A stretch of 64,000 nt of DNA from Candidatus Bathyarchaeota archaeon. Its GTDB lineage: Archaea > Thermoproteota > Bathyarchaeia > Bathyarchaeales > Bathycorpusculaceae. This document shows, one piece after another, positions 2,829-40,025 of this stretch. Positions within the stretch are counted from its first letter, which is position 1, and every line of letters starts with the position of its first letter. Below the pieces are notes generated by a model. That model was not told where the DNA came from. It did not search any database and saw nothing but the letters and a program-made list of their open reading frames with translations. The stretch spans positions 1 to 64,000 of the forward strand of contig CAIUPH010000113.1 of the NCBI GenBank assembly GCA_903901015.1. Direction: 5' to 3'. The translations under genes were made by a program, and so were the position numbers.

Positions 2829-3052
2829 TTCAACATGCCAATAGCCTTGAAAATCGCCAATATCGACCTACCCCCTCTATCGTTTCTGCAATGAGTTTCT
2901 ATTAGGATCCGAGATCTGTGCACAATTCGGTTTTGTGTTTTCTTTACTGTTTAACTTTCCTGACGGACAACTTTAGAGTAACAGAAAAAAAGCAACAAAC
3001 CACCCAAAAACAGAATACTGCACACCCCTCAGATCCAAATAAATTCGTGACT
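2829..3052 (+). repeat. GGATCC-centred intergenic repeat, copy A (interrupted)
   Basis: Copy A of a repeat seen five times in the window. The left arm (2829-2910) runs through TATCGACCTACCCCCTCTAT and TTTCTGCAATGAGTTTCT to GGATCC. The right arm resumes at 3031 with AGATCCAAATAAATTCGTGA. The two arms are split by a 120-bp insert (2911-3030). In copies C, D and E the same arms are joined directly at one GGATCC. Confidence 0.85.
2911..3030 (-). mobile_element. MITE-like 120-bp element, copy 1 (inverted)
   Basis: This 120-bp block is the reverse complement of 17253-17373, with only four substitutions and one single-base indel by eye. Its ends form an imperfect 20-bp terminal inverted repeat (GAGATCTGTGCACAATTCGG against GAGGGGTGTGCAGTATTCTG, 14 of 20 matching). 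It is flanked by GGATCC on the left and AGATCC on the right, as if the target GGATCC had been duplicated. It has no coding capacity. It behaves as a small non-autonomous transposable element inserted in a palindromic target. Confidence 0.75.
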
Positions 3053-16240: not shown

Positions 16241-17131
16241 CTATATTGAGCCAAGCAGCAAGGACACGACAGTCGCGATTATAACGATGGCTATGGTTTC
16301 CGCCAGCGTTACTTTCCAGTTTACCCTTGTCTTCTTCGAGCGGTAACGCGCAAGGAACACACCTGAGATGATGACGACTTCCAATAGCGAAACTGCAAGG
16401 TTGTAGACAGGCGGCAACACAAGGTAGGTTGCTATTGGAATGCTGCCTGCAACGAAAGTGGTTATTCCCGAGATTGTCGCGCCGTAAAGGTTGGACCGGT
16501 GAATCTGCTTGTCGAGTAGCGTGAACAGTTTCTGGACGAGCAGCAGCGATTTGTCGCGTTCTTTCTTGTCAGGGATGTCGCTTAAGCTGTAGTTCATCAG
16601 GTTTTGCAGTGTCATGATATCGGCTAAATCCGCCGTGATTCCGCCAAGCAGAAAACTCGAGAAACCAGTTATGGTTACGGCGCTCAACGTTAGCAATGCT
16701 GCGAAGATGAGGGTTCTTGGGTCGCCCAGCAATGTTCTGGTGCCTGTTAAAGAAGAAATGAAAGCTGAGAGAATTACAACTAAACTCGTTATCGAGCCAT
16801 CCACTAACCCTGCAACAATCTCCATGATGGGTTCTTTCTTTAGCAGCAGGCTTTCCCATTCTTTGCCCAACCGTTGCCCCTGCGCCGTCAACTGCACCAG
16901 GTCGTCTTTTTCCGTGATTAAGCCTTCAGTGGACATTTCTTTTAGTGCTTTGTCGAGTTCGTTCATTTCGATGCAGGCATAGTTGGCGCAGACGCGGTCA
17001 ACTCGGCTCTTCAGGGCTGTCTTCTTTATTTTGGCGCCTTTGCTCAGGTTCAATAGAACAATGACGCGGATAACGTCGGGTAACTCTTGAATTTCAAATG
17101 CCACTGAATAAATCCACCGATTAACAACCAA
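16241..17131 (-). CDS. Winged-helix domain fused to VIT1/CCC1-like transporter
   Basis: The N-terminal ~90 residues are soluble and look like a winged helix (VIRVIVLLNLSKGAKIKKTALKSR, then LTAQGQRLGKEW). The rest is membrane: EIVAGLVDGSITSLVVILSA is the VIT1/CCC1 signature first helix carrying the Asp, followed by four more hydrophobic segments near 135-160, 215-240, 240-262 and 275-295. VIT1/CCC1 proteins move Fe2+ or Mn2+. The loop between helices 2 and 3 (about 165-210) is charged, as expected for the metal-binding loop. The fused DNA-binding-type domain is unusual. The start is TTG 17131 or GTG 17104; neither is decisive. Convergent with the CoA-binding gene (3-bp gap). Confidence 0.72.
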   Translation of the reverse strand: MVVNRWIYSVAFEIQELPDVIRVIVLLNLSKGAKIKKTALKSRVDRVCANYACIEMNELDKALKEMSTEGLITEKDDLVQLTAQGQRLGKEWESLLLKKEPIMEIVAGLVDGSITSLVVILSAFISSLTGTRTLLGDPRTLIFAALLTLSAVTITGFSSFLLGGITADLADIMTLQNLMNYSLSDIPDKKERDKSLLLVQKLFTLLDKQIHRSNLYGATISGITTFVAGSIPIATYLVLPPVYNLAVSLLEVVIISGVFLARYRSKKTRVNWKVTLAETIAIVIIATVVSLLLGSI

Positions 17132-17200: not shown

Positions 17201-17252
17201 ATTGGGATACCTACCCCTCTATGGTTTCAACATAGAACCTCTAATAGGATCC
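17201..17252 (+). repeat. GGATCC-centred repeat, copy B (left arm)
   Basis: CTACCCCTCTATGGTTTCAACATAGAACCTCTAATAGGATCC. It belongs to the same family as copies A, C, D and E, in the TTTCAACATAGAACC variant shared with E. The GGTT...AACC part can form a small hairpin. The right arm is displaced by two insertions and resumes as CAAATAGGTTCGG at 17514. Confidence 0.8.
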
Positions 17253-17373
17253 GAGGGGTGTGCAGTATTCTGTTTTTGGGTGGTTTGCTGCTTTTTTCCT
17301 GTTAACTCTAAAGTTGCCCATCAGGAAAGTTAAACAGTAAAGAAAACACAAAACCGAATTGTGCACAGATCTC
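17253..17373 (+). mobile_element. MITE-like 121-bp element, copy 2
   Basis: Near-identical reverse-complement partner of 2911-3030 (about 96% by eye). It is bounded by GGATCC at 17247-17252 and again at 17374-17379. The same imperfect 20-bp terminal inverted repeats are present, with GAGGGGTGTGCAG at the left and CTGTGCACAGATCTC-type sequence at the right. The flanking repeat arms keep their orientation, so the element alone is inverted relative to copy 1. Confidence 0.75.
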
Positions 17374-17383
17374 GGATCCAAAT

Positions 17384-17513: not shown

Positions 17514-17580
17514 CAAATAGGTTCGGGCCCAATCGACCCCCTCCTCGGTTTCTGCAATGAGTTTCTAATAGGATCCAAAT
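17514..17580 (+). repeat. Right arm of copy B joined to copy C of the GGATCC repeat
   Basis: CAAATAGGTTCGG continues the right arm of copy B. It then runs into AATCGACCCCCTCCTCGG, TTTCTGCAATGAGTTTCT and AATAGGATCCAAAT, an uninterrupted copy C. B and C are thus tandem. Confidence 0.75.
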
Positions 17581-17621
17581 ATGCTCATTTGCAAAAAACA
17601 GGATTCAAAAATGAAGGAGAA

Positions 17622-36677: not shown

Positions 36678-36700
36678 AACAAACTCTTCAATAAGTCACT

Positions 36701-36785
36701 CACGAACCTATTTGGATCCTATTAGAAACTCATTGCAGAAACCGATAGGGGGTAGGTCGATATTGGCATTTTAGCCTCAATAGTA
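36701..36785 (-). repeat. GGATCC-centred repeat, copy D
   Basis: Read on the minus strand: ATGCCAATATCGACCTACCC, CTATCGGTTTCTGCAATGAG, TTTCTAATAGGATCCAAATAGGTTCGTGAG. It is uninterrupted at the single GGATCC (36713-36718). It lies between the convergent ends of the phosphorylase and oxidoreductase genes. Confidence 0.85.
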
Positions 36786-39910: not shown

Positions 39911-40025
39911 ATTCAACATGCTATTGATAGTGAAAAACGTCAATACCAACCTACCCCTTAGAGACTGCCTACCCCTCTATCGTTTCAACATAGAACCACT
40001 AATAGGATCCAAATAGGTTGGTGAG
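39911..40025 (+). repeat. GGATCC-centred repeat, copy E
   Basis: ATTCAACATGCTATTGATAG, then CCAACCTACCCCTTAGAGACT with CCTACCCCT repeated as in a small internal duplication. CTATCGTTTCAACATAGAACC (variant shared with B) and ACTAATAGGATCCAAATAGG follow. Uninterrupted at GGATCC (40005-40010). Confidence 0.85.

Follow-up and report, generated by a model that had tools for sequence, protein, structure and literature searches.

A 120-bp inverted-repeat element at the core of a dispersed repeat in a Bathyarchaeia genome is very probably a MITE mobilised by a transposase from a 1.04-kb IS family

Two copies of an inverted-repeat element in the window

How does a non-coding sequence of about 120 bp come to stand twice, in opposite orientations, between similar flanks in the 64-kb stretch of DNA analysed here (the window)? 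An earlier note on this DNA had proposed that one element, which we call B, was inserted into the palindromic target GGATCC with duplication of that target. Alignment of positions 2905-3036 with 17247-17379 showed that the two stretches are near-identical reverse complements, with four substitutions and one indel over the ~120-bp core, and that the two B copies are oppositely oriented, as that note had claimed. In a hand count the outer 20 bp of copy 1 agree as inverted repeats at 14 of the 20 positions, and the hexamers bounding the copies are as first described, one boundary being AGATCC and not GGATCC. B is flanked by the two halves of A, an intergenic repeat that is dispersed through the genome and reads roughly TTTCAACATGCTAATG...GCCAATACCGACCTACCCC...GGTTTCTGCAATGAGTTTCTATTAGGATCCAAATAGGTTCGTGA. 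The three loci at which the same flanks had been seen joined at a single GGATCC (17571, 36714 and 40005) were also recovered; the 19-bp flank pattern matched 3 times where chance would give 0.02. The features are as follows.

2911..3030, plus strand: B copy 1, ~120 bp, non-coding, with imperfect inverted repeats GAGATCTGTGCACAATTCGG / GAGGGGTGTGCAGTATTCTG
2905..2910, no strand: left target hexamer of copy 1, GGATCC
3031..3036, no strand: right target hexamer of copy 1, AGATCC
2830..2904, plus strand: left part of the A split by copy 1, CAACATGCCAATAG...GACCTACCCCCTCTATCGTTTCTGCAATGAGTTTCTATTA; the orthologous A is empty in the related genome G013
3037..3050, plus strand: right part of the A split by copy 1, AAATAAATTCGTGA
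17253..17373, minus strand: B copy 2, in reverse orientation
17247..17252, no strand: GGATCC on one side of copy 2
17374..17379, no strand: GGATCC on the other side of copy 2
17203..17246, plus strand: left part of the A split by copy 2; its orthologue is empty in G013 and IS-occupied in G019
17536..17581, plus strand: empty A, single GGATCC at 17571
36700..36758, minus strand: empty A, single GGATCC at 36714
39996..40015, plus strand: empty A core, single GGATCC at 40005

B is a multicopy element of two related genomes

The genome and its relatives were searched for the 120-bp core and the flanks were listed, as the earlier note had advised, and further copies were found in the source genome and in G023. 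The source genome, a 2.05 Mb draft of 117 contigs from an uncultured archaeon that its nearest GAPDH relatives place in Bathyarchaeia, contained 17 full copies and two fragments of B on 13 contigs. Since the copies are spread over 13 contigs and their outer flanks are unrelated, the two copies of the window are separate loci and not one locus assembled twice. Among 100 relatives, B was present in number only in G023, of the same genus, where seven copies are full or nearly so and an eighth is partial, all with at most 84% identity to the query. The mean identity of B is 92% within the source genome, 95% within G023 and 81% between the two. One weak relative of B (70%) was found in G014, adjoining decayed IS remains; this locus (L204, 474-1470) exhibits a diverged B-like element beside a decayed IS of the B-linked transposase family. 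B was not detectable in G013 and was not found in a plasmid search, and an exact 27-base B pattern, which is a narrow one, had no match in the named genome collection, records near the source genome being excluded, which speaks only weakly for its absence there. Two candidate larger elements (L018 and L019) were rejected, as they appear to be truncated B ends. One copy (L014, contig C95, position 68135) lies exactly at a contig end; the B repeat therefore breaks the assembly of its own genome, a warning for metagenome work that such repeats break assemblies.

The target is the core of the dispersed repeat A

All full copies of B, in the source genome and in G023, are located at the GG-N-TCC core of A. 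The repeat is ~100 bp long and its core is a 16-bp near-palindrome (a REP, for comparison, is a palindrome of 20-40 bp). There are about 70 A cores per genome, mostly empty, the empty ones being several-fold commoner than the filled ones. The exact core (TANTAGGNTCCAAATA) matched about 66 times in the source genome, and a 15-base core pattern matched 43 times there, 81 times in G013, 26 times in G023, 18 times in G019 and not at all in many congeners. All 34 A copies checked (34/34) were intergenic. A is often tandem with a spacing of ~62 bp, and is plentiful in some congeners and missing from others.

The proposal of a GGATCC target stood as regards the core of the site, but not as regards the hexamer as sole target, the true target being the core of the dispersed repeat, about TAWTAGGNTCCAAATA. 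None of the four GGATCC sites of the window that lie outside A (28253, 28627, 36041 and 47655) is filled and every B copy is in A, so that GGATCC alone is not the target. In the source genome a hand count gives an 8:8 orientation of B relative to A, the remaining copy being ambiguous. Two copies have unusual flanks: at L007 two left halves of A face each other, and at L017 the core is inverted relative to the A arms. Both look rearranged after insertion.

We compared both window sites with their orthologues. The first site, in the interval between a 134-aa gene and the GAPDH gene, holds in G013 an A in the same orientation, which is empty (L207). At the second site, upstream of the ORF at 16241-17131, A is likewise in the same orientation and empty in G013 (L213), and in G019 it carries a remnant, one end, of a full-size IS from the B-linked family (L215). 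Because the orthologous A is empty in G013 and IS-occupied in G019, A is most likely older than B at both sites. Two loci syntenic with the first site (L092 and L095) have no A there at all, and PLYI01000087, whose GAPDH is 92% identical, was discarded as a comparison for this site as it is not syntenic.

A full-size IS with the same ends is found in the same core

The earlier note had recommended a search for a full-size transposase element with the ends of B, and an IS of ~1.04 kb was found in the same A core. The source genome was searched with the B end motif, three mismatches being allowed, which led to two unpaired ends adjoining A, one of them belonging to an element on contig C31. This element is 1,038 bp long, lies in A with GGATCC on both sides and has the arms CTAATAGGATCCGAGGGGTGTGCACAATT / AATTATGCACACCTCTCGGATCCAAATAG; its inverted arms extend over 29 nt with 86% complementarity, target included. 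Its transposase gene, the sole one of the B-linked family found in the source genome, is broken by frame changes and stops. Contigs C31 and C46 (L171 and L172) exhibit the same gene followed by A and an IS of this family, one of them without the far IS end; the pair reflects either duplication of the region or strain variation within the assembly. Intact transposases were found in relatives: in G013 one of 284 aa, from an IS in A with GGAGCC on both sides, and in G029 one of 336 aa, from an IS with GGAATC on both sides in a core-like palindrome that is not clearly in A. More distant intact relatives are present in G014, G006, G072 and G081. B and the ISs of the source genome and of G013 have in common the terminal motif GAG-nnn-TGTGCA-[C/T]-AATT. 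B resembles the known ISs over roughly the terminal 15-25 bp only, and no autonomous element with the exact inner ends of B (TGTGCACAATTCGGTTTTGTG) was found. There was no transposase match in the B-bearing G023, and no relative of the transposase in phage records or viral contigs.

The transposases match DDE_Tnp_1 (PF01609) with E values of 3e-16 or better and 60-63.5 bits against a gathering threshold of 23, and residues D110, D178, E226 and K233 are invariant in five of these proteins. They resemble IS5, IS1182 and IS4-type ISs in their DDE_Tnp_1 and DUF772 transposase domains, short inverted repeats and target duplication, but differ from them in that the partner transposase lies below every NCBIfam cut-off (IS5_4, 66.8 vs 140; IS5_3, 64.5 vs 110; IS1182, 63.9 vs 270). 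As no family cut-off is reached, they are a divergent group relative to the NCBIfam families.

Evidence for duplication at the target

Twenty-three B insertions and three IS insertions, 26 elements in total, were used in a hexamer test in which the hexamers, entered by hand, were shuffled among elements. Direct hexamer matches amounted to 131 against 120.4 expected (P = 5e-5), and inverted matching gave no signal for the same 26 elements. Non-palindromic hexamers were present on both sides of one element in the case of GGAGTC, GGCTCC, GGAGCC and GGAATC. It is these non-palindromic pairs that produce the signal, mainly those of the ISs and the G023 copies; the B copies of the source genome alone gave P = 0.35 for direct matching, and they cannot show duplication because GGATCC is palindromic. 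Insertion with duplication, as first proposed, was thus supported for insertion by the empty orthologues, the 8:8 orientation and the same-end IS, and for duplication by the family-wide test, but not by the source-genome B copies taken alone.

Several hexamer pairs differ between the two sides of an element. The outermost bases, G on the left and C on the right, are invariant, and at the positions next to the element T stands in 8 of 26 cases and A in 7 of 26. It follows from these variable junction bases either that four bases are duplicated and a junction base travels with the element, or that a junction CpG mutates often; the duplication may span six bases, or four if the element carries one junction base at each end. 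Mismatched pairs can also arise by recombination between copies, by analogy with what was proposed for ISRm22 (PMC1525189).

Proposed mechanism

We consider it very likely that B is a MITE which the transposase of the ~1.04-kb IS family moved into the A core. B has the size of such elements (~120 bp, at most 40 codons) and is multicopy; it has terminal inverted repeats in common with an autonomous element, the similarity being limited to the termini, and target duplication was detected over the 26 elements. As a DNA transposon B would be non-autonomous: it has inverted-repeat ends but carries no gene, and it would be moved in trans by a DDE transposase, that of the IS with the same terminal motif. 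Both B and the IS would be placed by this enzyme where the near-palindromic core (about TAWTA-GGNTCC-AAATA) has its axis of symmetry, and a staggered cut would duplicate the central hexamer. A target so close to symmetry would accept the element in either orientation. No movement of B was observed; that this transposase moves it is what we infer, and the core itself is presumably what the enzyme recognises. The repeats of the window would thus be explained by a passenger transposon together with its presumed parent and the dispersed site at which both land, sister genomes supplying before and after examples.

Alternative explanations

B might instead owe its spread to homologous recombination or gene conversion among the A repeats and not to transposition. 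The reshuffled flanks at L007 and L017 would agree with such a process, as would an enrichment of TATTT at the A-left side of filled sites (5/13 vs 2/68 at empty sites, P = 0.0009, counts entered by hand); this enrichment would also be explained by a preference for fully palindromic cores or if one arm had later been corrected from the other. However, most filled copies have ordinary-looking A flanks and B is found in both orientations, and a same-end IS occupies the same site with matched non-palindromic hexamers, so that we regard this explanation as very improbable. Conversion may nevertheless act on B copies after insertion.

B could also be the original inner part of a longer A-B-A repeat, an empty A being then the product of slippage deletion between the GGATCC copies across a hairpin. 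Two features agree with this, the GGATCC copies as possible primers of a precise deletion and the ability of B to fold back (RNA fold z about -4.4 and -4.3), but such an origin is hard to reconcile with equal numbers of B in the two orientations relative to A, with the 81 exact-core A copies of a G013 in which B is not detectable, with an IS of very different length at the same core, or with filled A being outnumbered several-fold by empty A. We judge it highly improbable. Just as improbable is a role as a structured RNA gene or regulatory hairpin that selection maintains and recombination spreads: the foldback potential on both strands and the intergenic position of the copies, one of them upstream of GAPDH, are compatible with it, but the RNA-gene reading was rejected on the absence of any Rfam match at B within the window and of any compensatory change over 24 consensus pairs in 23 copies from two genomes (covariation term 0.16), the arms moreover retaining specific mismatches, like the left and right ends of a transposon, and the orthologous sites of G013 being without B.

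Comparison with known systems

Insertion of bacterial ISs at one position of dispersed REP palindromes is established (Tobes and Pareja 2006, PMC1525189). ISRm22, an IS4-family element of Sinorhizobium meliloti, lies at the axis of palindromy with six-base direct repeats, some of them mismatched pairs (PMC1525189). The B copies likewise occupy one position in a dispersed intergenic repeat, the axis of symmetry, and are flanked by six-base repeats of which some are mismatched; the position described for REP-targeting ISs of type 1 has its counterpart here in the A core, where all full B copies and the ISs of the source genome and G013 are located. In contrast to ISRm22, B and its IS family have an archaeal host and another target repeat, and it is the 120-bp non-autonomous derivative, not the IS, that is abundant. 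MITEs have been reported in Archaea, in Sulfolobus, Halobacterium, Haloquadratum and others (PMC10969869), and B resembles them in being short, non-coding and multicopy, with inverted-repeat ends and presumed mobilisation by an IS transposase. It differs from them in that its insertion is confined to one repeat core, and Bathyarchaeia are not named in the list of PMC10969869. In the open-licence literature we found nothing relevant on mobile elements of Bathyarchaeia, and no prior description of this IS/MITE pair or of A; the pair belongs to a known kind of mobile DNA and is unusually precise in its targeting. The combination of a small transposase and a long near-palindromic intergenic target makes it a useful case for archaeal target specificity.

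We tentatively suggest, with somewhat less than even confidence, that target choice was switched within one transposase family. If true, this switch would offer a natural series in which to trace how a DDE transposase gains a sequence-specific, harmless landing site. Family members with 64-66% identity (G006, G014, G072/G081) are flanked by 7-bp AT-rich duplications, AATTCTT, TCTTTGT and AACTAAT (by eye), and the B-linked members (source genome, G013 and G029) exhibit a GG-NN-YC palindrome with 6-bp duplications, those of the source genome and G013 being within A.
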